Positions 9,001 through 39,851 of a stretch of 64,000 nucleotides of DNA are shown piece by piece. Position numbers and translations under genes: made by a program. This DNA comes from Kutzneria kofuensis. GTDB lineage: Bacteria; Actinomycetota; Actinomycetes; Mycobacteriales; Pseudonocardiaceae. A model generated the notes under the pieces. It searched no databases, was not told the origin of the DNA, and saw nothing but the letters and a program-made list of their open reading frames with translations. Location: positions 7,194,038 through 7,258,037 of the forward strand of contig NZ_JACHIR010000001.1 of the NCBI RefSeq assembly GCF_014203355.1, in the 5' to 3' direction. The stretch's first letter is position 1. The number at the start of each line of letters is the position of its first letter.

Positions 9001-9888
9001 GCCGACAACCTGCCGCTGCCGGTCGCCAAGATCACCGGCTACTCCAGCGGCTCACCGCTGGGCAACGCCCGGGCCACCGGCGAGGTGTCGGGCCGGCAGC
9101 GGGCCGACGACGTGCGCGAGTACCTGATGAACCAGATCCAGCGGCAGCTCAACATCTATGCCCCGCCGCGGACGCGGGAACTCGACGTGGAGCAGCTGGT
9201 GCCGGAGTCCGACACGGTCGGCGCCTACGACGCCCACCGGCGCGACGCCGTCGTCACCACGCACCTCGACCACGGCGACCAGGCCCGGCACACCGTCACG
9301 CCGCCGGCCACGCGATTCCACGACGCCGCGGTCCGGTCGGCCGGAGTGGAGCTGGGCAGGCATTTCCGCGACGACAGCCCGTTGTCGCGGATCCGCCGCT
9401 GGACCTCGACCCAGCCGCTCAGCCGGCTCAAGCGGCCCGCGCCGCTCAGCGCGCACCTGCTGGAGCCCATCCCCGACACGCCCGTCGCGCCCAAGCGGGT
9501 CGACCTCGGCGCCCGGCTGTCCGGGCACGGGGCGTCGGACGAGACCGTGGACCTGGTCAAGTCCACCACCGACGAGGCCGCCGAGGAGATCAAGGCGGTC
9601 GAGGGCGAGGCCGCCGCCGGCAAGTTCCGGGCCGGCTTGCAGCGGGCCGTGGAGATGCTGGAGCGGGACGGGGCGCTCAATCCGTACCTGCGCAAGGCCG
9701 GCGACCCCGTGACGGCCGGGCTGATGCTGTCGCACCTGTTGGACGGCATGGCGCGGGCCTGGGCACAGGGCGGCAACGCGGCGGCCGCCGCGGCCGCGCA
9801 GATGGAGATGCGGATGATAGGGATAGAGTTGCCGCCCGTCGGCTCAGTCGGCGTGCCGAGCGAGGGACGTGGGACCGATGACCAGTGA
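1..9888 (+). CDS. Giant T7SS-linked multidomain Fic protein (5' partial)
   Basis: The reading frame is open from base 1, so the start lies upstream; 3,295 residues are visible. The first third is beta-rich with repeated units (each carrying LVSVSD, near bases 1320 and 2850), followed by a charged coiled-coil stretch (about 3240-3700). Two tandem Fic units follow, with motifs HPFEDGNRRLN (residue 1554, base 4660) and HPFEDANGRLN (residue 2100, base 6298). Each is followed by a metalloprotease-like repeat that has lost the HExxH site; a third such repeat is at 7354-7690. Near the C-terminus, MAHANP (His 2693) and LLACRAG (Cys 2742) look like a caspase/CHAT-fold dyad, and an OmpA-like stretch lies near 8900-9150. 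Fic enzymes transfer AMP or phosphate to target proteins. The downstream T7SS-associated gene overlaps it, so I infer a T7SS-exported polymorphic toxin. Exact family unknown. Confidence 0.8.
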   Translation, partial: HDPVIFRDGSAHVRMGGVEANRAGIEPPHGAKTDFEPTPEPLHAPSYLSSGKSMGLAKILSLSGGDQVRQRVEETLLGNDKLKDLAPDFGSRTFADASRGDKALAAANRRALDTKLSDEHLAANMDSMLGDGMKIRLKKPGLFVNRYVTVTVKARLTEFEHLGQAPDHTVTGAGGTSHALGISGTAKKGVTVYADGRVTTPFDGGHAKGAPTASVGVQYGYNRAHDTEAGPSTGHKLSTGGGEDVHGFKAKVAYDVTVDDHSRSRSWVRRLTPGTPGLDVPAVHRTPHVGPDDGTHRTPPSGEVTVLVPHSLTSKTPPHQHVDNHVTTPMANAPHISDLRATARAKRQPEFQRVEAIVGAEHIQRAAEDALAEAGGGDRALALPGTVSADALHHAFSPETLTADPQLVSHGVQLDGLQHNRRVMDRVGAVGMTMELSEPKLVSVSDEISLKQQQSGGYSVSGAKQTQHSVGINVGTSASRNALTITPDTAHPHGRAGIFATASLRNWTWTSKVARSMGGTAEHSVSSPDGRTVLLRMNAKVHVVAESRQTNMLHDTDVRTAGRTVDLPDSVFVRVTEQQARAMGVLPEHDLAIDPTPIGPKPGLPVPNTLRTERPSIGFGYVEPTGDLVKLVPSLRENLGDLGKELLPQSVLDDAMGNLRRLEEQSSQDGVRSFVDSALNGGVSLMTPKPNTFTHDNYEVVLHATPTGDGPTYLGVSNDGSTMAHNATGALAEAQTKGKEASSGIGGRFMGTGLPQLKDPAASMTVNNATSASISHSTGTTTTRTDSTEVRQTSEAAGPQARFKLPVNFRLEIKHKGEHLQFSAPEPHDLVVRKLADDVSTTTDVPVRNGATVTRMEDGPVDHADWQRDGAKLPDEVHVDDFTGSVNLLRTEARRLAGDLSSTSEHALTTTLTPEVIKANLPAMLRGPVDLPGLREAGLTAYAKLTNPRLVSVSDSVDLGGGTAHSSKIDTTVSRTVSGSVNAIIGGVGGNVTDAPHAPQHRDFNAGESGVYLDRGGMSHTESSSTGGTVHPAPAGSTAHPGRTQVLVHDTEIRLVKGDRAVSLKFDDSSRVRTYDDGTLPEPVRQAQDKVREAEKAWRTAENNVVKARHVADDAYLAAKDQTEPLREQLERNRQAQETNNDELGRLRGELYNAYAADDRARVSQVEQQLALAHEHADELTRQQDELTNSFRQADRARQQAFDHAVDTYRQARDAEDAWWAARRERDAALAGRPPVHEETRSSNDDMPFNPPERDRSAELQHHRSLLDRNTRDSAVHMANAAAARERFGQALHDRDLPGTRRGMATLQRIHNEGQRLADNRRHMLESIAEIEHEHEPEMRALPDELPPPVPPRPARTLSEALPRNDWWRLYLDPRHHEQAAREFPDDPGSLYDNERSPGFQRSMVGAYEKFLDARRGERLDADIYKEMHEAATSNLNKKFEWTGSQVVKGVTVPTNFPVRRREVDPDVFLDHVGDRPLVVDVKKALATPGVNPVTYTHVEGGRRLITTNYNPGEAREMVNTTFDQFYAEIGRAHDDFDRLRAIARAVRTLHIIHPFEDGNRRLNVHVLLPKLLLEHGFDPVIRPDMDELFQGGRSLDQIVSAIHEEHLAMRNPVLTDERWRHSEADTASWSQPHEPLTADQWDHLRRDDLKTTVHTEVTDVKAVHEHNNGETPKPRSISSDATMVRYDLRRIEVEPGRFVQEYTVKLHVDGPDADTVWHKAEAGVNSLLNKGFRLPTGDQFHLRLERAATTADAHATVSVGDHGVTRQNQWDRHDSPETLAHAVMQYVGPRDDPRRPITSEPAVGPRPSDLWQIERIARNQVNVPDTRLNGPNPQRWNTVPRTEHDVPEHLPPVRERNADHDREQMAQEALRRGQEASARRQAEPQDENPEPIPPGPARPLDAVLPKKDWWKLYLDPAHHEEALRRFPDDPGSMYDHEQSKGFQRSMESAYERYLNDIDPNERFDSAKYKQMHDAVTAHLGKTYKWSGSIGRSGTAKNTHFPIGDRPLARDILDERLGDRRLVSTLASMVNDEHDQPPATFTSNLVGKNTTITTNYTQEHAPQLIDSAFAQFHDEIGRAHDDFDRLRAIGRVVRTLHVLHPFEDANGRLNVYLLLPKLLLQHGFEPAIRPEMSELFNGGYSVDQIASALHDSHRAANDPVLANEQWRHNPADTAPWFEPNRPMTPDQWEHLRRDDLLDSVHTENTGVRDRHSDVSGPARILDSDTGMVRYDVRRIEVEPGRFVREYTVKLHMERGSGATHEDVDTAWQKASDGVRDVLNKGYRLPTGDQFHVRIERVAADQAHASVRVGGDETRQNRWRIEDSPETLAHAVLQFLGPRDDTGVLHGHDAGTALRPRDLWQVERVTQDQAVVPHTRLNDTSAAPRTVVPKTGIEGPAFPQPVHQREADSGAQMHSAPDVVVPRHDRVSLADIDLVRDDAPLNIVRASTEHGRFSYDMRRMEVKPGEWVREATVKVHFDGDVTPRQAREVLRNLDLGAEKQFNHERLPGGDQFRVRFQQVEDRLDAHARVKLVAEGPAEGHAVWSLKDDPAQLAHKIGTHLGLTGHHVGEKLTAHHLEQLQNDPRRGVDSLPHSDSHGDTRQDWFSGEDDAGRERRFPMSNVTHTELRDRSGKVFGTSFFHDDADQRLARRWAGGANPDRVYQYDKDGHGRVVNDKDLATTVPGLADESAVLMAHANPYSAGLHVRGLGDVRVKADTLADIAVRTEGFNKAVDGGRRTTMLLACRAGAVDGPGGLAHDLQLALAARNKADRVVGASQIMLFGEGNGDRLTAVESGGHYNVFGSVLPKHEAAMVSEIATAMGRGWKYADGPARLDGKIGLSDRANTMRLAKAIADDAVAKLPGNGGHLDLADVYRKAGKHQRPDIVTAVVLSHIASDPATSEAVHSITDRYRDRRDRWVPVPVGSARERFTVTGESTWHEGEGKVTRPVRLNALGEHGPLSEPGGHEPVGVQFKRGKFTLPTGRVPELDAFAERFAKLALERQADNLPLPVAKITGYSSGSPLGNARATGEVSGRQRADDVREYLMNQIQRQLNIYAPPRTRELDVEQLVPESDTVGAYDAHRRDAVVTTHLDHGDQARHTVTPPATRFHDAAVRSAGVELGRHFRDDSPLSRIRRWTSTQPLSRLKRPAPLSAHLLEPIPDTPVAPKRVDLGARLSGHGASDETVDLVKSTTDEAAEEIKAVEGEAAAGKFRAGLQRAVEMLERDGALNPYLRKAGDPVTAGLMLSHLLDGMARAWAQGGNAAAAAAAQMEMRMIGIELPPVGSVGVPSEGRGTDDQ

Positions 9889-21643: not shown

Positions 21644-22102
21644 CAACGGGCCTCCTCGCGACGCGCTGCGGCGTAGGAGTCCAGTGAACCTGCTCGGCGT
21701 GGTGGCCACCCGCAGCCGATGACTCGACTTGCCCGAGACATATGACGTAGACGGGCTCCGGCCCGACCGCGCACCGTCACCGACAACGTCGTCTCATTGC
21801 GACGATCGGGCGGCGGTTTGTCGAGGGGGTCCGCGAGCGGTGATCCGACGACCGAAGGGCGTCGGCCGAGCGTGAACCGGACCTCGATCTCGCCGGTATC
21901 ACGCCCGTAGCGGGGTGGGCAACGGGCCGTTCCGTGTGCCGGACATCGCGCCGCCGCCGCGTAACCCGCTTGAAGGACAGTAGATCGGCGTTGTCCAACC
22001 TTGTGGAACAGACGGTGCCGCCGCGTTCGCACGCTGGTTACGGTGCGCGGGACAACACGGCGGGTGCCCGTTTCCGCCATGTGAGCCGGGAGGGTGAGCG
22101 GT
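21644..22102. other. Divergent intergenic region before terpene operon
   Basis: About 460 bases between the receiver protein and the prenyl synthase. No reading frame with convincing features. It must contain the promoter of the eight-gene terpene operon. CGTCG-N8-CGACG (21787-21804) and GTCCA-N6-TGGAAC (21993-22009) are weak inverted repeats, but no clear promoter was recognised. Confidence 0.5.
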
Positions 22103-23134
22103 GTGACCGCAGAACCGATTGTGCGGCAAGCCAGTTCCGCGCTGGACATTCTTGCCACGAGCCGCAGGATGCTGGATCCGCGACTGAGGGCGGCGGTCGA
22201 CCGGCTGCCGGGCATGCTGCGCCGCATCGCCGGCTACCACCTCGGCTGGTGGGACGCGGACGAGCGGCCGGTGGCTGCCAGCCCGGGCAAGGCGATCCGG
22301 CCGGCTCTGGTGCTGCTGGCCGCCGAGGCCGTCGAGGACCGGGTCGACGAGGCGATGCCCGCCGCCGTCGCGGTGGAGCTCGTGCACAACTTCTCGCTGT
22401 TGCACGACGACGTGATGGACGTCGACCGGATGCGGCGCAACCGCCCGACCGCGTGGACGGTTTTCGGTGTGTCGCAGGCGATCATCGCCGGCGACGCGAT
22501 GGCGTCGCTGGCCAGCGCGGTGCTGTCGGAGTCGGCCGGCCCGTGGGCGGCCAGCGCCGTCCGTTGGCTCAACGACTGCGTTGTGGACCTGTGTGACGGG
22601 CAGTTCCTCGACGTCGCCTTCGAACAGCTGGACCGGGTCGACCTGGCCGAGTGCCTACGTATGGTGCACGGCAAGACCTCGGCTCTGCTGGGCGTCTCCT
22701 GCGCGCTCGGCGCGCTGGCCGGCGGCGGAACGCCGCGCCAGGTCGAGCTGCTGCGCCAGTTCGGCTACCACCTCGGCCTGGCCTTCCAACTGGTTGACGA
22801 CCTGCTGGGCATCTGGGGCGACCCCGCCGTCACGGGCAAGCCGGTCGGCGCGGATCTGGTGCGCCGCAAGAAGTCTCTGCCGGTGGTGGCCGCGCTCGCC
22901 TCGGGCACGGCCGCCGGTGACGAGCTCGCCCGCACGTACCGGGCGGACACGCCGGTCGATGTGGCCCGTACGAGCGAACTCGTCGAGCTGGCCGGCGGCC
23001 GGAAGTGGGCGGAGACCCGCGCCGACGAGGAGCTGGCCCACGCGATGGCCTGCCTCGACTACGCCAACTGCGCGCCCAGGGCCCGCGGCTACCTGGTCGA
23101 GGTGGCCAACCTCGTCGTCCGCCGGAACCACTGA
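22103..23134 (+). CDS. Polyprenyl diphosphate synthase (probably GGPP synthase)
   Basis: A 343-residue trans-prenyltransferase joining IPP to allylic diphosphates. The first aspartate-rich motif is [18 protein letters not shown] and the second is [13 protein letters not shown]; both bind magnesium-diphosphate. The DDxxD motif without insertion and the [13 protein letters not shown] context resemble actinobacterial GGPP synthases, so a C20 product is likely but not proven (FPP possible). Start GTG 22103 is 9 bases behind GGGAGG; GTG 22094 abuts it and is less likely. It leads the MEP-pathway/terpene operon and is followed 16 bases later by ispH. Confidence 0.9.
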
Positions 23135-23150
23135 GCCCGAGGAGACTGCC

Positions 23151-24377
23151 ATGCTTCGCCGCTTGCCGGTGACCGCGGTCGGCGACCAGACCGCCAATGT
23201 GCTGGTGGCCGACGGGATCCGCGTCGACGGTCGCGAGGTGGCCTGCCCCGCCGCCCCGCTGTTGATCGGCGACCTGACGCGCCGCGGCCACCACCCGGAG
23301 GTCGCCACACTGCAGGCCGGCGCCGGTGGCGTCGAGGCTGCCGTCGCGTTGGTGCCCGGCACCGACTTGGGGCTGGCCGTCGCCGCCGCGCCGCGGGATC
23401 TCGCCACCGCGCAAGGAGTTGTGGCTTCATGGCTGGCCGTCGCGGGGCCGCGCACCGTGTTGCTGGCGAGCCCCCGGTCGTTCTGCGCCGGCGTCGAGCG
23501 GGCGATCGAGATCGTCCTGCAGACGCTGCAGCAGCGGGACACCACTGTGTACGTGCGCAAGGAGATCGTGCACAACAAGCACGTCGTCAACGACCTCGCC
23601 CGGCGCGGGGCGCGCTTCGTCGACGAGCTCGACGAGGTGCCGGACGGTGCGACTGTGGTGTTCTCGGCGCACGGCGTCTCGCCCGCGGTGCGGGCGGAGG
23701 CCCGCGACCGCGGCATGGAGGTGATCGACGGGACCTGTCCGCTGGTGACCAAGGTCCACTCGGAGGCCCGGCGGTTCGCCGGTCGCGGCGACACGGTTGT
23801 CCTCATCGGGCACGCCGGCCACGAGGAGGTCGAGGGCACCATGGGGGAGGCGCCCGACGCGATGGTGCTCGTCGAGACCGTCGACGACGTGCTGAAGCTG
23901 GAGATCGAGGACGTCAGCCGGGTCTCGGTGCTGACGCAGACCACCCTCGCCATGGACGAGACGGCCGAGGTGGCGGACGCGCTCCGGCAGCGGTTCCCGG
24001 CGCTGCGTGGCTCGGCGGCCGAGGACATCTGCTACGCCACCACCAACCGGCAGGAATCGTTGCGACGGCTCACCGTCGACGCGGACGTCGTGCTCGTCGT
24101 CGGCTCGGTGAACTCGTCCAACTCGCAGCGGCTCGTCGATCTCGCCGACCGCCAGGGCGTGCCGGCCCACCTGATCGACGACGTGGCGGACCTCCGCCCG
24201 GAGTGGTTGGCCGGTGCGGAAACCGTGGGCCTGACCGCGGGCGCCTCCGCGCCGCCCGAACTCGTCTTCGAGGTGATCGCCGCGCTCGGCGGGCTCGGTC
24301 CGGTCGAGGTGCGGGAACGCCGGACCGTCGACGAGACCGTCCACTTCGGACTTCCGTCCGCGCTGCGCACGCGGTGA
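23151..24377 (+). CDS. ispH: 4-hydroxy-3-methylbut-2-enyl diphosphate reductase
   Basis: A 408-residue protein performing the last MEP step, reduction of HMBPP to IPP and DMAPP with a [4Fe-4S] cluster. The three cluster cysteines are in [23 protein letters not shown] and [10 protein letters not shown]. It is about 90 residues longer than usual at the N-terminus ([13 protein letters not shown] up to about residue 95), a domain I do not recognise. GAGGAGA precedes the ATG. It sits between the prenyl synthase and dxs. It needs low-potential electrons, relevant to the korAB genes downstream. Confidence 0.95.
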
Positions 24378-24409
24378 GACAGCCATCCACTCACGCTCGG
24401 GAGCTAGCC

Positions 24410-26200
24410 ATGACCAGTGCCTACCAGGCGGCGTCGGACCAGGTGCCGCTACCGCGACCGCGCAAGGCCGCCCACCCCAGCCTGCTGTCCGCCGAACTGG
24501 GCGAGTTCGACACCGTGCAGCTGCGCGCGCTGGCCGCCGACATCCGGGCCCACCTGGTGAGCACGGTCTGCGCGGCCGGCGGCCACCTCGGCTCCAACCT
24601 GGGCGTCGTCGAGCTGACGATCGCGCTGCACCGGGCCTTCCGGTCGCCGTGGGACGCGGTCCTGTTCGACATCGGCCACCAGGCCTACGTGCACAAGATG
24701 CTCACCGGCCGCTGGGACCGATTCCGCACGCTGCGCCAGGCCGGCGGCCTGTCGGGTTACCCTTCCCGGGCCGAGAGCGCTCACGACTTCATCGAGAACT
24801 CCCACGCCTCAACGGTGATCTCCTACGCGGACGGCATGGCGCGGGCGATCGAGCTGATCGGAAACCACGGCCGGCGGGTCGCCGCGGTCATCGGCGACGG
24901 CGCGCTCACCGGCGGCATGTGCTGGGAGGCGATGAACAACCTCGGCGGCTCCGGCAAGCCGGTGGTCCTGGTGCTCAACGACAACGAGCGGTCCTACGAC
25001 CCGACGCTCGGGTCCGTCGCCGAACACCTGAGCGCGCTGCGCGCCGGCACGGCCGACGGAAACCTGTTCGAGCAGCTGGGTTTCGAGTACCTGGGGCCGA
25101 TCGACGGGCACGACTTCGACGCCCTCGACGACGCCTTCGCCCTGGCGCGCAGCCGTCCGCACCCGGTGCTGGTGCACTGCGTGACCGTGAAGGGCAAGGG
25201 ATACGCGCGGGCCGAGCGGGACGAGGCCGACCGCATGCACGGCATCGGCGTGATCGACCCGGCGACCGGCCGCAGCACGCAGCCGGCCGCGGTCAGCTGG
25301 ACGAACGTGTTCGCCGAGGAGATCGCCGACATCGCGCGCGACCGGGTCGACGTCGTCGGCGTCACCGCCGCGATGCGGCTGCCGGTCGGCTTCGGCAGGT
25401 TCGCCGCGGAGTTCCCGGACCGCGTGATCGACGTGGGCATGGCCGAGCAGCACGCCCTGACGTCGGCGGCCGGCCTCGCCATGGGCGGCATGCACCCGGT
25501 GGTGGCCGTCTACTCGACGTTTCTCAACCGGGCGTTCGACCAGCTGCTGATGGACGTCGCGCTGCACCGGCTGCCGGTGACGCTCGTGCTGGACCGGGCC
25601 GGTGTCACCGGGCCGGACGGGCCCAGCCACCACGGCATGTGGGACCTGTCGCTGCTGGCCATGGTTCCGGGGATGCGGGTGGCCTGCCCGCGTGACACCG
25701 ACAGCCTGCGAACCCAGCTGCGCCAGGCGGTTTCGTGCGAGGGGCCGACCGCGATCCGGTTCCCCAAGGCCTCGGCGGGGCCGGCGGTCCCGGCCTGCGC
25801 CACGGTCGGCGACGTGGATCTGCTGTCCGCCGACGGGAACGACGTACTGATCGTCGCTGTCGGACAGTTGGCCCCGATGTGCCTGCGGGCCGCGGAGATC
25901 CTGCGCGAGCAGGGCATCGGCGTGACGGTGGCGGACCCGCGGTGGGTGCTGCCGGTGAGTCCCTCGCTGGTGGATCTCGTCGCCGGGTTCCGGGTCGCCC
26001 TCGTGGTCGAGGACGGCCTCGGCTCCGGTGGCATCGGCGACGCCGTCGCCCGGGCTTGTGCCGCGTCCGATGTGGACGTTCCGGTCCGATCGATGGGGTT
26101 GCCAACAAGGTTTCTCGCGCACGGTAGCCGGAACGGGGTGCTGGCCCAGGTCGGCCTGGATGCCGAGTCGATCGCCAGGCACGTCGGCGGCCTGCTGTGA
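24410..26200 (+). CDS. dxs: 1-deoxy-D-xylulose-5-phosphate synthase
   Basis: A 596-residue thiamine-diphosphate transketolase-like enzyme that condenses pyruvate and glyceraldehyde 3-phosphate, the first and flux-controlling MEP step. Visible features: [30 protein letters not shown], the TPP motif [16 protein letters not shown] ending near LNDN, and [18 protein letters not shown]. Slightly shorter than housekeeping homologues (~620-640). Its last codons overlap the dxr start (GTGA). A dedicated copy inside a biosynthetic cluster would raise isoprenoid precursor supply. Confidence 0.96.
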
Positions 26201-27387
26201 GTGCCGCCGTCCTGGTGCTCGGCTCGACGGGGTCGATCGGCGCCCAGGCGCTCGACGTCGTCGAGGCCCGGCCGGATCAGTTCTGGGTCGCCGGCATCTC
26301 GTCGTCCGGCCGGAAGCCGGCGGTGCTGGCGTGCCAGGCGTTGAACCACAACGTCGACGCCGTCGCGGTCACCGACCCGGCCGCCGTCGACAACGTCCGG
26401 CTCGCCCTGCGCACCGAAGCCCACCGCCGGGGCAACACGCAGCGGCTGCCGCGAATTCTGTCCGGCCCGCACGCGGACCTGGAGTTGATCGACTCCACGC
26501 CGGTGGATGTCGTGCTCAACGCCCTGCCCGGCTCGCAGGGCCTGCGGCCGTCGTTGCTGGCGCTGGGCACCGGCGCTCGGTTGGCGTTGGCCAACAAGGA
26601 ATCGCTGGTGGCCGGCGGTTCGCTGGTGTTGAAGGCGGCCAAGCCGGGGCAGTTGGTGTCGGTGGACTCCGAGCACTCGGCGTTGGCGCAGTGCCTGCGC
26701 GGCGGCGCCGAGGAGGAGGTGGCCCGGCTGGTGTTGACGGCGTCGGGCGGCCCGTTCCGTGGTCGGCGCCGCGCCGAGTTGGCCCGGGTCACCGTCGGCA
26801 GCGCGATGGCGCATCCGACCTGGTCCATGGGGCCGCTGATCACCATCAACTCGGCGACGCTCGTCAACAAAGGGCTGGAGGTCATCGAGGCGCACCTGCT
26901 GTTCGACGTGCCCTACGACCGGATCGACGTCGTGGTGCACCCGCAGTCGGTGATCCACTCCATGGTGACCTTCGTGGACGGTTCGACGCTGGCCCAGGCC
27001 AGCCCGCCGGACATGCGGCTGCCGATCTCGCTGGCCCTGGGCTGGCCGGCCCGGGTGGCGGGTGCGGCGCAGGCGTGCGACTGGTCATCGCCGACGAGTT
27101 GGACGTTCGAGCCGCTGGACGATGTGACGTTCCCGGCGGTGGAGCTGGCCCGCTTCGCCGGTGCGACCGGCGGTTGCCTGCCGGCGGTCTACAACGCCGC
27201 CAACGAGGAGTGCGTCGCCGCTTTCCTCGCCGGCGCAACGAGTTTTCTGTCCATTGTGGATACCGTGGCCGAGGTTGTCGGCGCCGCCGACCAGTGGCAC
27301 GGGGAACCCGCCGACGTGTCCGAGGTGCTTGCCGCCGAAGGGTGGGCCCGGACCAGGGCCGCCGCCACGCTGGCGCGTGCCGCCTGA
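26197..27387 (+). CDS. dxr: 1-deoxy-D-xylulose-5-phosphate reductoisomerase
   Basis: A 396-residue NADPH enzyme converting DXP to [18 protein letters not shown] at the N-terminus is the nucleotide-binding loop; [25 protein letters not shown] and [16 protein letters not shown] are the metal- and substrate-binding blocks. The GTG start overlaps the dxs stop by four bases, so translation is coupled. The next gene, ispG, starts 16 bases downstream. Confidence 0.95.
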
Positions 27388-27403
27388 TGTGAGGGAGATG
27401 ATC

Positions 27404-28549
27404 ATGTCTGTCCTGCTCGGCATGCCGCAGGCGCCTGCGCCGGTGCTTGCGCCCCGTCGTGTCACCCGGCAGCTGAAGGTGGGGTCGGTGGGCATCGGCA
27501 GCGACTTTCCCGTTGCGGTGCAGTCCATGACCACGACGCTCACCGCCGACGTCAACGCCACCCTGCAGCAGATCGCGGAGCTGACCGCGGCCGGCTGCGA
27601 CATCGTGCGCGTGGCCTGCCCGTCGCAGGACGACGCGGACGCGCTGCCGGCGATCGCGCGCAAGTCGCAGATCCCGGTGATCGCCGACATCCACTTCCAG
27701 CCCAAGTACGTGTTCGCCGCGATCGAGGCCGGCTGCGCCGCGGTGCGGGTGAATCCGGGCAACATCAAGAAGTTCGACGACAAGGTCCGGGAGATCGCGC
27801 AGGCGGCCAAGGACCATGGCACGCCGATCCGGATCGGTGTCAACGCCGGTTCGCTGGACCCGCGGCTGTTGCAGAAGCACGGCAAGGCCACGCCGGAGGC
27901 GTTGGTGGAGTCGGCGCTGTGGGAGGCATCGCTGTTCGCCGAGCACGACTTCCACGACATCAAGATCTCGGTCAAGCACAACGACCCGGTGGTCATGGTC
28001 CGGGCCTACGAGCTGTTGGCGGAGTCGTGTGACTATCCGCTGCACCTGGGTGTGACCGAGGCCGGTCCGGCGTTTCAGGGCACGATCAAGTCGGCGGTGG
28101 CGTTCGGGGCGCTGCTGCGGCAGGGCATCGGGGACACGATCCGGGTGTCGCTGTCGGCGCCGCCGGTGGAGGAGATCAAGGTCGGCACGCAGATCCTGCA
28201 GTCGCTGAACCTGCGTCCGCGCAAGCTGGAGATCGTGTCGTGCCCGTCGTGTGGTCGGGCGCAGGTGGATGTGTACAAGTTGGCCGAGGAGGTCACCGCC
28301 GGCCTGGAGGGCATGGAGGTGCCGCTGCGGGTGGCGGTGATGGGGTGCGTGGTCAACGGGCCCGGTGAGGCGCGGGAGGCCGATCTGGGGGTGGCCTCGG
28401 GCAACGGCAAGGGGCAGATCTTCGTCAAGGGGCAGGTCGTCAAGACGGTGCCGGAGCACCAGATCGTCGAGACCCTGATCGAAGAGGCGTTGCGGATGGC
28501 GGAGGGGATGGAGTCGGTGCCGGGGTCGTCGGTGGAGGTCGTGGCATGA
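27404..28549 (+). CDS. ispG: 4-hydroxy-3-methylbut-2-en-1-yl diphosphate synthase
   Basis: A 381-residue [4Fe-4S] enzyme making HMBPP from MEcPP by two-electron reduction. The TIM-barrel N-terminus includes [17 protein letters not shown]; cluster cysteines are in [12 protein letters not shown] and [14 protein letters not shown] near the C-terminus. ATG 27404 is preferred to 27398 because GAGGGAG (27391-27397) then has normal spacing. The stop overlaps the korA start (ATGA), tying it to a ferredoxin-reducing enzyme. Confidence 0.95.
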
Positions 28550-30428
28550 CCGGCACCCGTCGCATCGTCAAGGCCGTCGACCGGGTTGTGATCCGTTTCG
28601 CCGGTGACTCCGGTGACGGCATGCAACTCACCGGCGACCGGTTCACCTCCGAGGCCGCCGCGTTCGGCAACGACCTCGCCACCCTGCCGAACTTCCCCGC
28701 CGAGATCCGCGCGCCCCAGGGCACGCTGCCCGGCGTGTCCAGCTTCCAGCTGCACTTCGCCGACTACGACATCCTCACCCCCGGCGACCGCCCCGACGTC
28801 CTGGTCGCGATGAACCCCGCCGCCCTCAAGGCCAACATCGCCGACCTCCCGGCCGGCGGGACCCTGATCGTCAACACCGACGAGTTCACCAAACGCAACC
28901 TGACCAAGGTCGGCTACGCCTCCAACCCCCTGGACGACGAGTCCCTGGCGCAGTACAACGTGCACCAGGTCGCGATGGCCTCCATCACCCGCGCCGCCCT
29001 GGAACCCACCGGGCTGTCGAAGAAGGACGCCGAACGCGCCAAGAACATGTTCGCCCTCGGTCTGCTGTCGTGGATGTACCACCGGGAGACCGCCGGCACC
29101 GAACGGTTCCTGCGGGAGAAGTTCGCCAAGAACCCGGCCATCGCCGAGGCCAACATCCTCGCGTTTCACACCGGCTGGAACTACGGCGAGACCACCGAGT
29201 CGTTCGCCGTGACCTACGAGGTCGCCCCGGCGAAGCTGGCCACCGGCACGTATCGGCAGATCACCGGCAACACCGCGCTGGCGTACGGGATCGTGGCGGC
29301 CGGGCAGTGCGCCAAACTGCCCGTCTTCCTCGGCACCTACCCGATCACCCCGGCCTCCGACGTGCTGCACGAACTGGCGAAGCACAAGAACTTCGGGGTG
29401 ACCACGTTCCAGGCCGAGGACGAGATCGCCGGCATCGGCGCCGCCCTGGGCGCCTCCTTCGGCGGCGCGCTGGGGGTGACCTCCACCTCCGGGCCGGGGA
29501 TCGCGTTGAAGTCCGAGACCATCGGCCTGGCCGTGATGACCGAGATGCCGCTGGTCGTGCTGGACATCCAGCGCGGCGGCCCGTCGACCGGTCTGCCGAC
29601 CAAGACCGAGCAGGCCGACCTGCTGCAGGCCATGTTCGGCCGCAACGGCGAGGCCCCGGTGCCGATCATCGCCCCCCGCTCGCCGGCCGACTGTTTCGAC
29701 GCCGCCCTGGAGGCCACCCGGATCGCGCTGACCTATCGCACGCCGGTGTTGCTGCTGTCGGACGGCTACATCGCCAACGGCTCCGAGCCGTGGCTGATCC
29801 CCGACGTCGACGACCTGCCCGATTTGAGTGTGGAGTTCGCGACCGAGCCCAACGCCACCGACGGGTCGGGGGAGTTCTGGCCGTATCTGCGGGATCCGGA
29901 GACGCTGGCCCGGCCGTGGGCGGTGCCGGGCACGCCGGGGCTGGAGCACCGCATCGGCGGGCTGGAGAAGGCCGACAAGACCGGCAACATCTCCTACGAC
30001 CCGGACAACCACGACAAGATGGTCCGGCTGCGCCAGGCCAAGATCGACGGCATCGCCGTGCCGGACGCCGAGGTCGACGACCCGTCCGGGGCCGCGCGGG
30101 TGCTGGTGCTGGGCTGGGGCTCCTCGTACGGGCCGATCGGCGCGGCCTGCCGGCGGGTGCGCCGGCTGGGCATGGACGTCGCGCATGTGCACCTGCGCAA
30201 CCTCAACCCGTTCCCCAAGAACCTGGGCGAGGTGCTGGGGCGGTACGACAAGGTCGTGATCCCGGAGATGAACCTGGGCCAGCTCGCGATGCTCATCCGG
30301 GCCAAGTTCCTGGTCGACGCCGTCTCCTACACCAAGGTGGCGGGTCTGCCGTTCAAGGCCGAGGAACTCCAGGACGTGCTCGTCGGCCATGTGCGGGCGA
30401 TGCGGGCGATGCGAAGCGAGGTGGCGGC

Positions 30429-30432
<4 letters not shown>
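28546..30432 (+). CDS. korA: 2-oxoacid:ferredoxin oxidoreductase, gamma-alpha subunit
   Basis: A 628-residue subunit of a KorAB-type 2-oxoacid (probably 2-oxoglutarate):ferredoxin oxidoreductase. The N-terminal gamma domain (from [19 protein letters not shown]) is fused to the alpha domain starting near residue 245 ([14 protein letters not shown], then [18 protein letters not shown]). KorAB oxidatively decarboxylates a 2-oxoacid with CoA and reduces ferredoxin. Start overlaps ispG and stop overlaps korB, both ATGA. Such genes normally serve the TCA cycle; here the position among MEP genes suggests electron supply to IspG and IspH. Confidence 0.92.
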
Positions 30433-31427
<995 letters not shown>

Positions 31428-31428
31428 T

Positions 31429-31457
31429 GTTCCGGGTTGCAGAACAACCGGTGGAAC
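31429..31457. promoter_or_regulatory. Inverted repeat between korB and terpene synthase
   Basis: GTTCCGGGTTG (31429-31439) and CAACCGGTGGAAC (31445-31457) form an imperfect stem with a 5-base loop. It starts one base after the korB stop. It could be a weak terminator or an operator; its outer arms GTTCC/GGAAC recall the palindrome at 38413-38429. Confidence 0.35.
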
Positions 31458-31513
31458 GCCCCGTGGGTGCTTCCTAGACTCGGCACCGCGCCGAATCGAG
31501 AGCGGAGATCATC

Positions 31514-32569
31514 GTGACCATCTGCGACACAACCCTTCTCTGGTGCCCGATTCCGCCGGGAATCCACCCGAACTGGCGGCAGTGGGAGCGCGACACCGTC
31601 GCCTGGCTGGAAAGCTTCGCGCTCGAGGACGAGCAGCGGGAGAAGAAGCGGCTGCAGGCCATCATCGCCGGCGAGCTGGCCGGCCGTACCATCCTCAGCT
31701 GCGACGACCCGCCCGGAGCCCAGTTCTCCACCGACAGCCTGATGTGGCTGTTCGCGTTCGACGACGCGTACTGCGACGAGGGCCGCTACAGCCACGACCC
31801 CGCGGCCATGGCCATGCTCGTCGCCGAGATGGGCCGCATCGCCGAAACCGGCCGGACCGTGTCGACGAGCCCCCTTGCTCGTGCTCTGGCCGAGCTTCGG
31901 TCTCGTCTCGATGTCCTGGCCAGTCCCGCCCAGACCGCGCGGTGGGTGCACGCCATGAAGGGCTACCTCGGCTACCAGGTGTGGGAGGCCGCTTTCCGGC
32001 ACACCGGCACGATTCCCACCCTCGACGAGTACGCCGTCGCCCGGATTCGCAACGGCAGCATGGAAGTCTGCGCCATGACCCTCGACATCGCCGAGGGCTA
32101 CGAGGTTCCCGCCGCCGAGATCGACCGCCCCGACGTCCGCGCCCTCACCGAGATGGCCTGCTCGCTCGTCGGGTGGGACAACGACATCGCCTCGTACTAC
32201 AAGGAACACGAGCGCAGCGGCGACCGGATCAACCTCGTCGACGTGATCGCCGACCAGAAGGGCTCGACCCCCGCCGAGGCCCTGCCGTCCGCCATCGCCC
32301 TGCGCGACGCCGTGCTGGCCCGCTACCTCGAACTCCGCGACGAGATCGAACCGCACGTGGGTTCCTTGACCTGGCGCTACATCGGCGGTCTGTCGGCGTG
32401 GATCCGCGGCAACCTCGACTGGAGCGCCAACACCGCTCGGTACCGTCGGCCCGACTGCCCCACCGTCGCCGTCACCTCCTCGCGTGAGTACGCGACCGGC
32501 GACTGCCCCCAGCCTCCCGGCATCGCCTGGTGGTGGACCGCCGACCCGACCCAGCCCGCAGCGGCGTGA
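31514..32569 (+). CDS. Class I terpene synthase
   Basis: A 351-residue bacterial type I terpene cyclase that ionises a prenyl diphosphate and cyclises it. The metal-binding aspartate motif is FAFDDAYCDE (DDxxx[DE] type); the NSE triad is WDNDIASYYKE (NDxxSxxKE, complete); a C-terminal Arg-Tyr pair (NTARYRRP) fits the family. GTG 31514 is preceded by GGAG. It is last in the operon with GGPP-synthase-like and MEP genes, which favours a diterpene product, although sesquiterpene is not excluded. Product unknown. Confidence 0.93.
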   Translation: MTICDTTLLWCPIPPGIHPNWRQWERDTVAWLESFALEDEQREKKRLQAIIAGELAGRTILSCDDPPGAQFSTDSLMWLFAFDDAYCDEGRYSHDPAAMAMLVAEMGRIAETGRTVSTSPLARALAELRSRLDVLASPAQTARWVHAMKGYLGYQVWEAAFRHTGTIPTLDEYAVARIRNGSMEVCAMTLDIAEGYEVPAAEIDRPDVRALTEMACSLVGWDNDIASYYKEHERSGDRINLVDVIADQKGSTPAEALPSAIALRDAVLARYLELRDEIEPHVGSLTWRYIGGLSAWIRGNLDWSANTARYRRPDCPTVAVTSSREYATGDCPQPPGIAWWWTADPTQPAAA

Positions 32570-32954: not shown

Positions 32955-35255
32955 TTGATCAGCGAAGTGACCACCTTCGTTGGCCGGGGCAACGAACTGA
33001 ACCAGGCATGCCACCTGTTGGGGGCGGTGCGGCTGCTGACGCTGATCGGGCCGGCCGGCGTCGGCAAGACGCGGCTGGCGCAGCACGTGGCGGCGAAGGC
33101 GGGCAGTGCCTTTGACGACGGGGTGGTCTTCGTCGAATTGGAGGCGCTGACGGACGCGGGGCTGTTACCGCAGGTGGCGGCGGCGGAACTGGGATTACGG
33201 GACGTGTCGGTGGCGCCGATGCCACAGTTGTTGTCCTTTCTACGAAATCGGTCGATGTTGATCGTGCTGGACAACTGCGAGCACATGGCCGCGGCCTGCC
33301 GGGAATTCGTGAATGCGGTGCTGGAGACGGCGCCGGAGGTCAGGGTGCTGGCGACAAGCCGGCACGTGCTGGGCGTTAGTGGCGAACAACTGCTGCCGGT
33401 GCGGCCGCTGTCGGTGCCGAAGCGGGCGGCGGACACCACCGACGACGCGATCACGCTGTTCACGGATCGGGCCACGTGTGCGCTGCCGCACTTCCGGCTG
33501 GACGACGACAACTGGGACACGGTGCTGGGCATCTGCTCGCGACTCGACGGCATACCGCTGGCGATCGAACTGGTGGTGCCCTGGCTCCGGGTGCTCTCGA
33601 CCCACGACGTCCTGAGCCGGCTCGACGACACGTTCACGCTGATCACGGCGGAAGCGGCGGCGAGACCGTCGCGGCAGCAGACGCTGATCGCGGCGGTGGA
33701 CTGGAGTTACGCGCTGTGCGCCCCGGACGAGCAGATCCTCTGGGCGCGGGCGTCGGTGTTCAGCGGCGGATTCACGGTCGAAGCGGTCGTGCAGGTGTGC
33801 GCGGACGAGCGGATCCCGGCGTCGGCGGTGCTGAGGCTGCTGGGCGGCCTGGTGGACAAGTCGGTGCTCATCCGGGACGAGGTCGACGGCGTGACCCGGC
33901 TCCGCATGCTGTACACGATCCGCCAGTACGGCCTGCAGCTGCTGGCGGAATCGGGCGACGAGCGACGGATCCGCGGCCGCCACCTCGACTACATGCTGCA
34001 GCTGGCGGAACGCTGCGCGGGGGAGTGGCTCGGCCCGAACCAGGTGGAGCTGGCGGCGGTGACCCGCCGTGAGCACAACAACCTCCGCTCGGCGTTGGAC
34101 TTCGCCCTCGGCGACCCGCAACGACGGATTGTCGGCGCGCGGCTGGCCACGGCCCTGCAGTTCTACTGGCTGGACTGCGGCTTCATCGGCGAGGGCCGCC
34201 GCTGGCTGGACCGCGTGCTCGAACTCGACGACCTGCCCGTCCACACGAGGCAGAACGCGCTGTGGATCAACTCGTACGCCGCCACGGCGCTCGGCGAGCT
34301 CCCGACCGGGAGGCGCCTCGGCGAGCAGGCGGTGGCGATCGCGCGGGACACCGGCGACCCGCTGATGATGGCCAACGCGCTGCTGGCCTACGGGGGATCG
34401 GCATTCGTCGGCGGCGAGCTCGAACGAGGCCAGGAGGTCTACCACCAGTGCGTCGACCACTACGCGAAAGCGGGAGTGATCGACTGCCAGGCCATCCTCG
34501 CCCACGCGGCCCTGGGCATGAGCGCGGCCTTCGCCGGCAACCACGACCGGGCGGTGGCGGCGGCCGAGAAGGCGATCGAACTCGCCGACGCGCACGGCGA
34601 GCGGTGGACCCGTTCGTACGCGCACTACGCGGTGGCGGTGGCCACCTGGAAGATGGGCCGCACGGCGGAGGCGGCCCGGCACGCGATGACGGGCATCCGG
34701 ATCAAGGACCAGTTCAACGACCTGCTCGGGCTGTCCCTGCTGGTGGAGCTGATGGCGTGGATCGCGGGCTCCGCCGGCGCGATGCCGCAGGCGGCGGAGG
34801 TGCTCGGCATCGCGAGCTCGCTGTGGCGGCACACCGGCGGCGAGGTGTTCCTCGCGTCCGACAACTGGGCGCTGCCGCACCGGCGCTGCGAGCAGGCGGC
34901 GCGAGCGGCGCTGGGCGACGAGCGGTACGAGTCGATCCACGCCAGGGGCGCGGCGAGCGCCGCCACCGTCGATGACGCCGTGGTGCAGACGCTCAGGGTC
35001 GCGACGGACCTGGCCGCCGCCCACGCGGCCGCGCCGACGGTGTTGACCAGCCGGGAGATCGAGGTCGCCGAGCTGGCCGCCGCCGGCGCGTCCAACAAGG
35101 AGATCGCCGCCCGGCTGGTGATCTCCACCCGGACCGCCGAGAAACACCTGGCCAACATCCTCAAGAAGCTCGGCTTCACCTCCCGGGCGCAGCTCGCGGC
35201 CTGGGTCGCCGACCGCCGCGGTGCGCCGAACCGCCAGCGTGGGAGCACGCCGTGA
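32955..35255 (+). CDS. LuxR-family ATPase regulator, first of tandem pair
   Basis: A 766-residue regulator. It has an N-terminal NTPase with Walker [11 protein letters not shown] (residues 31-40) and Walker B MLIVLDNCEH, a middle winged-helix/TPR region, and a C-terminal LuxR helix-turn-helix (LTSREIEVAELAAAGASNKE, then STRTAEKHLANILKKLGF). Start is a TTG at 32955 behind GGGAG; GTG 32967 is the alternative. These ATPase-type activators often switch on biosynthetic clusters, and it lies between the terpene operon and the P450. The next gene is a close paralogue and overlaps by four bases (GTGA). Confidence 0.88.
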   Translation: MISEVTTFVGRGNELNQACHLLGAVRLLTLIGPAGVGKTRLAQHVAAKAGSAFDDGVVFVELEALTDAGLLPQVAAAELGLRDVSVAPMPQLLSFLRNRSMLIVLDNCEHMAAACREFVNAVLETAPEVRVLATSRHVLGVSGEQLLPVRPLSVPKRAADTTDDAITLFTDRATCALPHFRLDDDNWDTVLGICSRLDGIPLAIELVVPWLRVLSTHDVLSRLDDTFTLITAEAAARPSRQQTLIAAVDWSYALCAPDEQILWARASVFSGGFTVEAVVQVCADERIPASAVLRLLGGLVDKSVLIRDEVDGVTRLRMLYTIRQYGLQLLAESGDERRIRGRHLDYMLQLAERCAGEWLGPNQVELAAVTRREHNNLRSALDFALGDPQRRIVGARLATALQFYWLDCGFIGEGRRWLDRVLELDDLPVHTRQNALWINSYAATALGELPTGRRLGEQAVAIARDTGDPLMMANALLAYGGSAFVGGELERGQEVYHQCVDHYAKAGVIDCQAILAHAALGMSAAFAGNHDRAVAAAEKAIELADAHGERWTRSYAHYAVAVATWKMGRTAEAARHAMTGIRIKDQFNDLLGLSLLVELMAWIAGSAGAMPQAAEVLGIASSLWRHTGGEVFLASDNWALPHRRCEQAARAALGDERYESIHARGAASAATVDDAVVQTLRVATDLAAAHAAAPTVLTSREIEVAELAAAGASNKEIAARLVISTRTAEKHLANILKKLGFTSRAQLAAWVADRRGAPNRQRGSTP

Positions 35256-38350: not shown

Positions 38351-38405
38351 CGTACGCAGTGCGGGCCGCCGTCTACGTAGTCGGCACGCGGCGTACGTAG
38401 TGCGG
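38351..38405. promoter_or_regulatory. Three phased TACG repeats
   Basis: CGTACGCAGTGCGG (38351-38364), CTACGTAGTCGG (38373-38384) and CGTACGTAGTGCGG (38392-38405) have TACG cores 21 and 20 bases apart, two helical turns. They lie between the divergent iclR and P450 genes and could be a cooperative activator site. Confidence 0.5.
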
Positions 38406-38412
38406 CCGGCAT

Positions 38413-38429
38413 GTTCCGCCCGGCGGAAC
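38413..38429. promoter_or_regulatory. Perfect 17-bp palindrome, candidate IclR operator
   Basis: GTTCCGCC-C-GGCGGAAC, arms fully complementary. Located about 90 bases before the P450 start and 165 bases before the iclR start. IclR-family regulators commonly bind palindromes of this size, so autoregulation and P450 control are inferred. Confidence 0.6.
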
Positions 38430-38519
38430 CCGTCTTGCCCCGGATGGCCGAGGTCGAGCTCAATATCGGTGCTCTTGCCGCGAATGGGTGGACCCACTCG
38501 AGAATTCAGGGGGCGAATG

Positions 38520-39851
38520 ATGACTATCGTGTCGAAGCCCGAGCCGAAAACGTCGCGAGTGCCGTCGGCGCCGTCGGCATGGGCCCTCGTCGGCCATGCG
38601 CCGAGCCTGATGCGGGACCCGGCGGGCTTCCTGGCGGCGTGCCGGGACAGCGGGCACGACCTGGTGGAGCTGCGGCTCGGCCCGCGGCGGGCGCTGCTGC
38701 TGTGCAAGGCGGCGGTGGTCAACCGGGTGCTGGCCGAGCAGGCCGAGGACTACGGCAAGGGCGGCCCGTTCTGGGACGCGATGCGGCCCATTCTCGGCAA
38801 CGGCGTCGGCACCTGCGACGGCGACGAGCACAAGCGGGCCCGTCGATTGCTGCGGCCGGCGTTCAACCGCGCCGCGGTCAACGGTTACAGTGAAATGATC
38901 GACGATTCGGCCAGTGTGCTGGCCGAATCGTGGCGGCCGGGACAACCGGTGCGGGTGGCCGCGGAAATGATGGCATTCACCTCCCGGATCACCGTTCGCG
39001 CGCTGCTGCCCACCATTGACGAGGCGGAAGTCGAACGATTCGTGCGGATGATGCCCATTCTCACCGAGGGCGCCTTCTATCAGCTCGTGCTGCCGTCATT
39101 CGCGCAGTTGCTGCCGACCGCGCACAACCGTCTCTACCAGAAGACGCGGGCCGAGGCGCGTGATGCCGTCGCACGGCTGGTGAAGCAGGCCCGCGCCGTG
39201 GACGAACAGGCTGGCCAGTGCCCCGCGCACCAGGGCCACGGCCTGCTGGCGTCGGCGATCGTGACCGGGCGGCAGGAGGAGTTGCCCCCGTTCACCGACG
39301 AGGAACTGGCCGACCAGGTGATGACGGTGCTGTTCGCCGGCATCGAGACCAGCGCGAACGTGCTGTCGTGGGCGTTGTGCCTGCTGGCCTCGCATCCGGA
39401 GACCGCCGACCGGATCGCCGAGGACACCGAGGGCGAGGTGGTGCACCGGGTGATCGCCGAGACGATGCGGTTGTACCCGCCGGGTTGGATCTTCAGCCGG
39501 AACTCGACGCGGCCGGTGGAGCTGTCCGGCCACCACCTGCCGGCCGGCACCGACTTCATCATCAGCCCCTTCCTGTTGCACCGGGAACCGCGGGTCTTCG
39601 ACCGTCCCGAGCAGTTCGACCCGGACCGCTGGCGCGACATGGATCCCGACGTGAAGCGCAGCTACCTGCCGTTCGGTCTCGGCCCGCGGCGGTGCCTCGG
39701 CGAGTTGCTCGCCAACGCCGAGATGGTGGCGGCGCTGACCACCCTGTGCCGGCGGTGGCGATTCAGCCTTCCCGAGGGCCGCACGGTTGTGCCGCGCTTC
39801 CGCAGCGTCCTCATCCCGCACGGTCTCGAACTGGACGTGCACCCCAGGTGA
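38520..39851 (+). CDS. Cytochrome P450
   Basis: A 443-residue soluble bacterial P450. The oxygen-activating I-helix has FAGIETSANVL, the K-helix ExxR is AETMRLYPP, and the haem-thiolate loop is FGLGPRRCLGE. All key residues are present. ATG 38520 (or the adjacent 38517) follows CAGGGGGCG; an earlier in-frame start at 38400 would run through the palindrome region and is unlikely. Its neighbours suggest oxidation of the terpene made by the upstream cyclase; no ferredoxin or ferredoxin reductase gene is adjacent. A strong hairpin follows. Confidence 0.93.
   Translation: MTIVSKPEPKTSRVPSAPSAWALVGHAPSLMRDPAGFLAACRDSGHDLVELRLGPRRALLLCKAAVVNRVLAEQAEDYGKGGPFWDAMRPILGNGVGTCDGDEHKRARRLLRPAFNRAAVNGYSEMIDDSASVLAESWRPGQPVRVAAEMMAFTSRITVRALLPTIDEAEVERFVRMMPILTEGAFYQLVLPSFAQLLPTAHNRLYQKTRAEARDAVARLVKQARAVDEQAGQCPAHQGHGLLASAIVTGRQEELPPFTDEELADQVMTVLFAGIETSANVLSWALCLLASHPETADRIAEDTEGEVVHRVIAETMRLYPPGWIFSRNSTRPVELSGHHLPAGTDFIISPFLLHREPRVFDRPEQFDPDRWRDMDPDVKRSYLPFGLGPRRCLGELLANAEMVAALTTLCRRWRFSLPEGRTVVPRFRSVLIPHGLELDVHPR

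Follow-up and report, generated by a model that had tools for sequence, protein, structure and literature searches.

What is a 2-oxoacid:ferredoxin oxidoreductase doing inside a terpene operon? The question is raised by a locus of Kutzneria kofuensis (Pseudonocardiaceae; G000, 10.4 Mb genome in five contigs), where a 64,000-nucleotide stretch (C1:7194038–7258037, hereafter the window) holds eight co-directional open genes at 22094–32569 on the forward strand—prenyl synthase, ispH, dxs, dxr, ispG, korA, korB and terpene cyclase. Our preferred reading, to which we give roughly even odds (about 0.5), is that this is a terpene operon of the methylerythritol phosphate (MEP) type that brings along both a module for precursor supply and an enzyme for electron supply, KorAB, which would feed IspG and IspH via ferredoxin. 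To our knowledge, what donates electrons to IspG and IspH in actinomycetes has yet to be settled. By coupling ispG to a ferredoxin-reducing enzyme, a naturally occurring operon points to a donor that can be tested, offers a ready-made engineering module and may show how bacteria power the MEP pathway.

An MEP-terpene operon with extra copies of its supply genes

Gene families were called by scoring NCBIfam and Pfam profiles against family cut-offs. A preliminary description, made from the sequence alone, had listed the same eight genes in the same order and direction; all of them are confirmed, on the forward strand. It ran the operon from 22103 to 32569, of which the end holds; the start is a GTG at 22094, 9 bp earlier. 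The genes are as follows.

22094–23134, forward strand: polyprenyl diphosphate synthase, 346 aa, GTG start (PF00348, 205.9 bits; NF041169, 450.4 versus cut-off 450; IdsB, 371.9 versus 475)
23151–24377, forward strand: ispH (lytB), 408 aa (NF002188, 424.7 versus 420, the profile covering residues 102–407 only)
24410–26200, forward strand: dxs, 596 aa (TIGR00204, 567 bits versus 466)
26197–27387, forward strand: dxr, 396 aa, 4-bp overlap with dxs (TIGR00243, 349.5 versus 315.7)
27398–28549, forward strand: ispG (gcpE), 383 aa (NF001540, 538 versus 345)
28546–30432, forward strand: korA, 2-oxoacid:ferredoxin oxidoreductase alpha subunit (fused gamma–alpha), 628 aa, 4-bp overlap with ispG (TIGR03710, 672 versus 483)
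30429–31427, forward strand: korB, beta subunit, 332 aa, 4-bp overlap with korA (TIGR02177, 250.6, cut-off 261.9; PF02775)
31514–32569, forward strand: class I terpene cyclase, 351 aa (PF19086, 137.9 bits; NF041565, 249 versus 450; best PDB match 4okm)

The four-base overlaps that had been described between ispG, korA and korB are both ATGA, at 28546–28549 and 30429–30432, and dxs and dxr also share 4 bp (26197–26200). The widest intergenic gap of the run is 86 bp, ahead of the cyclase. The overlaps and short gaps suggest a single transcript, and those joining ispG, korA and korB suggest translational coupling; a promoter and terminator scan returned 0 and 0 sites. The eight genes fill the run, leaving ispD, ispE and ispF outside it.

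KorA contains both POR and POR_N domains (PF01558 and PF01855), and its best solved relatives are alpha chains of 2-oxoacid:ferredoxin oxidoreductases (OFORs). KorB falls slightly under the TIGR02177 cut-off, yet it possesses a thiamine pyrophosphate-enzyme domain, and its closest matches of solved structure are OFOR beta subunits, with one of which (6n2n_B) it aligns. Its cysteines lie at positions 35, 38, 69 and 218, which we take to be the cluster-binding ligands. By domain content the pair is a KorAB-type 2-oxoacid:ferredoxin oxidoreductase. It belongs to the same two-subunit family as the housekeeping KorAB of Mycobacterium tuberculosis (Rv2455c/Rv2454c), described in excerpts of PMC2773412 as an aerotolerant, coenzyme A (CoA)-dependent 2-oxoglutarate:ferredoxin oxidoreductase, an activity that may, by analogy, extend to the window enzyme. 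The window pair differs from housekeeping KorAB in its terpene-operon location, its overlap with ispG and a shorter, diverged KorB C terminus.

The proposed function would run as follows. KorAB would oxidize 2-oxoglutarate (or a related 2-oxoacid) with CoA and pass the electrons to a ferredoxin encoded elsewhere. Reduced ferredoxin would then serve the two reductive Fe–S-dependent steps of the pathway, IspG and IspH, at a time when the operon draws heavily on the MEP route, to the benefit of flux; the precursors would go to the operon's prenyl synthase and from there to the terpene cyclase. Excerpts of two papers (PMC13001223; PMC12605070) have IspG and IspH drawing electrons from flavodoxin or ferredoxin, and call both enzymes bottlenecks. 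Counting against this scheme, no ferredoxin gene fits into the operon gaps (≤86 bp), the genome elsewhere not having been searched for ferredoxins.

A second housekeeping set had been named as something to look for, and it is there. Outside the window lie another ispG (C1:5734859, with a dxr about 1.4 kb away), another korAB (C1:4685419–4688342), another ispH (C1:3181183) and another dxs (C1:6191939), and the MEP and kor genes of the operon are therefore extra copies. We reject korAB as the sole copy in the genome (second korA at C1:4686486); nor is the pair conserved at this place regardless of terpene genes. A third korAB copy, on contig C2, is broken (G000:C2:38773–39175; L008 8774–9176): 86 bp of korA identical to the window are joined to a korB 3′ end (87%), with about 2.5 kb missing between them, and the ORF that follows looks TetR-like by eye.

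Recurrence and rarity of korAB behind ispG

The linkage was sought elsewhere with a degenerate pattern running from the 3′ end of ispG into the 5′ end of korA, which detects only near-adjacent genes with these motifs. The pattern matches once in the window and never in 100 shuffles, so the junction is not a chance occurrence. Across 84,980 species genomes (from which records of the window's own genome may be omitted), it recovers four other records: Saccharopolyspora elongata, Streptomyces spongiae, Streptomyces sp. SID8352 and Kitasatospora aureofaciens CPD02. All four genomes hold a separate further korA copy, and all four have more MEP genes at or near ispG–korAB. The three Streptomycetaceae carry ispG–korAB in a pentalenene-type operon. 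S. spongiae has the order gpps–pentalenene synthase–pentalenene oxygenase–ispH–dxs–ispG–korA–korB, with ispG, korA and korB open and with synthase and oxygenase above their NCBIfam cut-offs (696.5 versus 675 and 875.9 versus 800, respectively); the K. aureofaciens and SID8352 operons follow the same gene order. The ATGA overlap of ispG and korA is also present in S. elongata and S. spongiae.

In S. elongata, like the window genome a member of Pseudonocardiaceae, the locus is divided between contigs. Contig C59 carries a prenyl synthase, ispH, dxs and the start of ispG, and both C59 and C223 (NZ_SMKW01000065.1) end inside ispG; we infer that they adjoin, because the alternative 5′ half of ispG, on contig C7, lies near a dxr and so resembles the housekeeping locus.

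Several aspects of this distribution weigh against a dedicated electron source. The linkage is rare, four records among 84,980 species genomes under the exact pattern, and where present it is often damaged. K. aureofaciens has lost most of korA and the start of korB to a deletion, SID8352 has frameshifts in both genes, and in S. elongata an IS110-type transposase gene separates korA from korB, followed by a broken dxr. Two of the five operons carry a broken korAB, and a third has an insertion sequence between its korA and korB; the pair is thus not indispensable, which suggests that only certain conditions or certain hosts make it useful. Such decay would also be expected of a passenger, that is, of a central-metabolism gene pair that was duplicated, landed in the operon and stayed there for a short time before being lost, never contributing specifically to terpene supply. 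We regard this as unlikely, though worth serious consideration; against it, the 4-bp overlap with ispG recurs in three operons, and further evidence on both sides is given below. Two further features were noted in these genomes: an ispE after the broken korB of SID8352 (L102 3762–4919; NF002870, 378 versus 286 bits), and, in S. spongiae, an additional korAB remnant with stops besides the cluster and housekeeping copies (G300:C204, L135 5689–6356).

Loci that resemble the operon and lack korAB are the second point in the passenger's favour. Within the window's family, the KorB C terminus is matched in 283 of 297 genomes; a cluster-type match, which lacks the longer C terminus, was found, among the matches listed, only in the window genome and in S. 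elongata (judged from match lengths, the S. elongata locus then being read). From the family's IspH matches other than that of the window genome we took the 22 best and read the loci of 20 (G071 and G060 omitted). Neither korA nor korB occurs in any of these 20, again counting against the proposed role, and dxr is likewise absent. IspG is encoded in nine, two of which end inside ispG at a contig end; korB is matched just once in each of the two genomes whose contig ends in ispG.

The family of S. spongiae gives a similar picture. The pentalenene-oxygenase cut-off is passed by 14 of its 297 genomes, and all 14 loci were read. Pentalenene synthase is nearby in 11, of which seven have ispH and five ispG; one further pentalenene locus (G417) is cut by a contig end at the point where ispG is in question. 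KorAB or its remains occur in two of the 11 (S. spongiae, G300, and G299), the other nine having the P450 and no korAB. With looser search criteria, no korAB remnant came up at the protein level in 12 pentalenene-oxygenase loci or in the 20 IspH loci, the 32 together giving only five short nucleotide matches (E 0.002–0.008). One of these, 31 bp matching korA near ispG in G126 (E 0.002), was taken as chance, as were the four similar ones. The supply genes thus form a graded series to which korAB is occasionally added, and pentalenene operons that range from none to all of ispH, dxs, ispG and korAB amount to a natural experiment.

The pentalenene operons also supply a rival electron acceptor, for their cytochrome P450 might draw on KorAB, which weighs against assigning the enzyme to the MEP steps. 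Actinobacterial P450s commonly use ferredoxins. All three Streptomycetaceae korAB operons encode a P450 of the pentalenene-oxygenase type (S. spongiae and K. aureofaciens by model, SID8352 by 86% similarity), and a P450 lies downstream in the window at 38400–39851, so KorAB could feed ferredoxin-dependent cluster P450s instead of, or besides, IspG and IspH. We consider this improbable: the gene that korAB overlaps is ispG and not a P450, the eight-gene run has none (the nearest recognized one is 5.8 kb on, behind two large ORFs), and nine of the 11 sampled pentalenene operons manage a P450 without korAB. The window P450 scores 276 and 263 bits on the albaflavenone monooxygenase and pentalenene oxygenase models, far under their cut-offs, and may be part of the terpene cluster; the two large tandem ORFs ahead of it begin with a LuxR-type STAND regulator (32955–35255).

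Apparent separate origins, selection and probable gene conversion

Placing KorAB at the service of IspG and IspH gains from the ancestry of the genes. A KorB tree was built from 47 proteins (four cluster copies, that of K. aureofaciens being the readable part of a broken gene, and 43 treated as housekeeping). The window and S. elongata cluster copies group beside housekeeping copies of the window's genus; those of S. spongiae and K. aureofaciens group beside seven Streptomycetaceae copies located away from MEP genes. A single clade of cluster KorBs is rejected by the approximately unbiased test (p-AU 1.8e-7; 2.3e-5 on the C-terminal columns alone). In the tree of the C-terminal region, the long branches of the window and S. 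elongata copies join each other, and three changes of the cluster label are required, not two. From the two family-specific clades it would appear that MEP-terpene operons acquired korAB on at least two occasions, independently in Pseudonocardiaceae and in Streptomycetaceae, and behind ispG each time. Recurrence at the same position in two families, with different korAB ancestry, counts against a passenger. A single early recruitment, replaced afterwards by sequence converted from local copies, could mimic this pattern and tells against separate recruitment.

Selection on the cluster copies was gauged from the ratio of nonsynonymous to synonymous change (dN/dS). Comparing cluster with own housekeeping genes, the korA and korB core gives 0.18–0.22 in S. 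elongata and S. spongiae; housekeeping kor copies of different genera give 0.14–0.22 between them. By this measure, purifying selection acts on the cores in S. elongata and S. spongiae, a second argument against a pair that is only passing through. The window copy is less constrained, with higher values against its housekeeping counterpart (korA 0.50, on few changes; korB core 0.26; korB end 0.58), which detracts from a maintained function and suits the passenger explanation. The KorB C terminus is laxer in general, at 0.42–0.68 in eight of nine pairs, the exception being S. spongiae cluster versus a Streptomycetaceae copy (0.20).

The window values are read from genes that are mosaics. In their cores, the cluster ispG and korAB are 99.4–99.8% identical to the housekeeping copies, with sharp edges beyond which identity drops to 45–75%. 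Three tracts are delimited (no strand assigned).

27521–28494: gene-conversion tract in ispG, 6 mismatches in 974 bp versus housekeeping ispG; flanking gene ends 67% and 60% identical
28585–30380: gene-conversion tract in korA, 3 mismatches in 1,796 bp versus housekeeping korA; korA start outside the tract 45%
30597–31099: gene-conversion tract in korB, 1 mismatch in 503 bp; between the korA and korB tracts 75%, korB end 65%

Third codon positions differ at 3 of 595 sites in the korA tract and 1 of 167 in the korB tract, versus 54 of 109 in the korB end. The cluster dxr is about 80% identical to housekeeping dxr at the nucleotide level, with no long near-identical tract. Near-identical cores with sharp edges point to recent gene conversion, by which the ispG and korAB cores of the cluster would have been made identical to the housekeeping copies; the two housekeeping loci are about 1 Mb apart, so at least two events are needed. 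Simple whole-gene duplication of korAB and ispG was rejected, identity collapsing sharply inside the genes. That the tracts are an assembly artefact is argued against by the remaining mismatches and by contig breaks inside ispG in other genomes.

The donor was most likely the housekeeping genes and the recipient the cluster. This direction is favoured because, at third positions inside the tracts, the window's housekeeping copy is 0.14–0.22 from its genus relatives, the genus's own spread being 0.11–0.19 and the S. elongata cluster copy standing at 0.25–0.29 (a comparison that did not include S. elongata housekeeping korA). The korA tree does not resolve the direction, and the distance inside korA is slightly raised.

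Near-identity to the housekeeping enzyme can be turned to other ends. Mere recombination could produce it, as the passenger explanation would have it. Alternatively, the cluster pair may raise the dosage of KorAB for central carbon metabolism, in which it would bear on the balance of succinyl-CoA or 2-oxoglutarate; it would be expressed alongside the cluster during production and hand no electrons directly to the MEP enzymes. A cluster core almost identical to the housekeeping enzyme fits this, and the M. tuberculosis relative works in the tricarboxylic acid cycle, according to excerpts of PMC2773412. The repeated association with ispG and MEP genes would then need another reason, and we give the dosage explanation little credence.

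Near-identical ispG pairs are not confined to the window genome. Among 14 within-genome ispG pairs, six are near-identical over most of the stretch compared or an inner part of it (G000, G126, G136, G029, G109 and S. elongata, the G109 and S. elongata pairs resting on 84 and 95 codons only), one has a shorter tract (G089) and seven have no clear tract (G130, G022, G086, G108, S. spongiae, K. aureofaciens and SID8352). Housekeeping status is backed by an adjoining dxr for G000 and S. elongata and assumed elsewhere, and the G086 pair consists of two cluster copies. For scale, housekeeping ispG genes from different species of the window's genus agree at 82–85% of third positions. S. spongiae shows no sign of conversion in either ispG or korAB. 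Draft contigs break inside ispG in G029, G109, G136, G297 and G298, as expected if near-identical copies collapse in assembly; such breaks are a possible quick marker of converted pairs. Conversion between primary-metabolism genes and cluster copies is a caution against dating or tracing clusters from such genes.

A broader statement may be ventured tentatively, with somewhat less than even confidence: actinomycetes repeatedly and independently built a dedicated KorAB electron source into terpene operons via coupling to ispG, with gene conversion, in this genome and some of its relatives, holding the redox copies in step with primary metabolism. If repeated recruitment is true, electron supply to IspG and IspH would limit natural terpene production. 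The preliminary idea that precursor supply and a matching electron source are packed together is thus supported in part, by the extra copies, the recurrence, the purifying selection in S. elongata and S. spongiae and the apparent separate recruitment; it had overlooked gene conversion.

Relation to known clusters and neighbouring features

Clusters that carry MEP genes are already known, and korAB within a terpene cluster would be the new element. The hapalindole, ambiguine and welwitindolinone clusters of cyanobacteria have, like the window, extra dxs, dxr, ispG and ispH, with ispDEF outside the cluster in most strains; excerpts of the source (PMC4236562) list no 2-oxoacid:ferredoxin oxidoreductase, and the products are indole-isonitrile alkaloids rather than those of a terpene cyclase. 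The preliminary description knew of no characterized cluster with korAB, and we likewise found none among the matches listed in the open-licence literature, mostly titles and abstract starts, subscription papers falling mostly outside this scope.

Closer parallels are the Streptomycetaceae pentalenene operons (PtlA/PtlI equivalogs), which share with the window a prenyl synthase and a class I cyclase, in some cases ispH, dxs and ispG, and in three korA–korB or its remains behind ispG. The window differs in its cyclase, in having no P450 within the eight-gene run, in the presence of dxr and in a korAB of a different clade. We rejected a pentalenene assignment for the operon, its cyclase reaching 40 bits versus 675 on the pentalenene synthase equivalog; the nearest named family is selina-4(15),7(11)-diene synthase, far under that family's cut-off (NF041565, 249 versus 450). 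MEP-terpene clusters of the window's own family share with it, in several cases, the order prenyl synthase, ispH, dxs, ispG, and unlike the window have neither korAB nor dxr in the 20 loci read.

The window prenyl synthase reaches the NCBIfam model of the family 2 encapsulin cargo polyprenyl transferase (PMC8346489, seen in excerpt) by 0.4 bit (450.4 versus 450). That cargo has an N-terminal tail of 50–100 residues, according to the same excerpt, which the window synthase lacks, its profile match starting at residue 18. General scans found no encapsulin among the ORFs covered, no search aimed at encapsulin having been made.

IspH has an N-terminal extension of about 100 aa (window 23151–23450) without a Pfam match. 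Several of the family's MEP-terpene clusters also encode an N-terminally extended IspH, with matches into this extension, and the S. spongiae cluster IspH has no match that reaches it. Near the start of the window, a 3,283-aa ORF at 37–9888, without a Pfam match at E ≤ 1e-10, shows strong codon-position bias.

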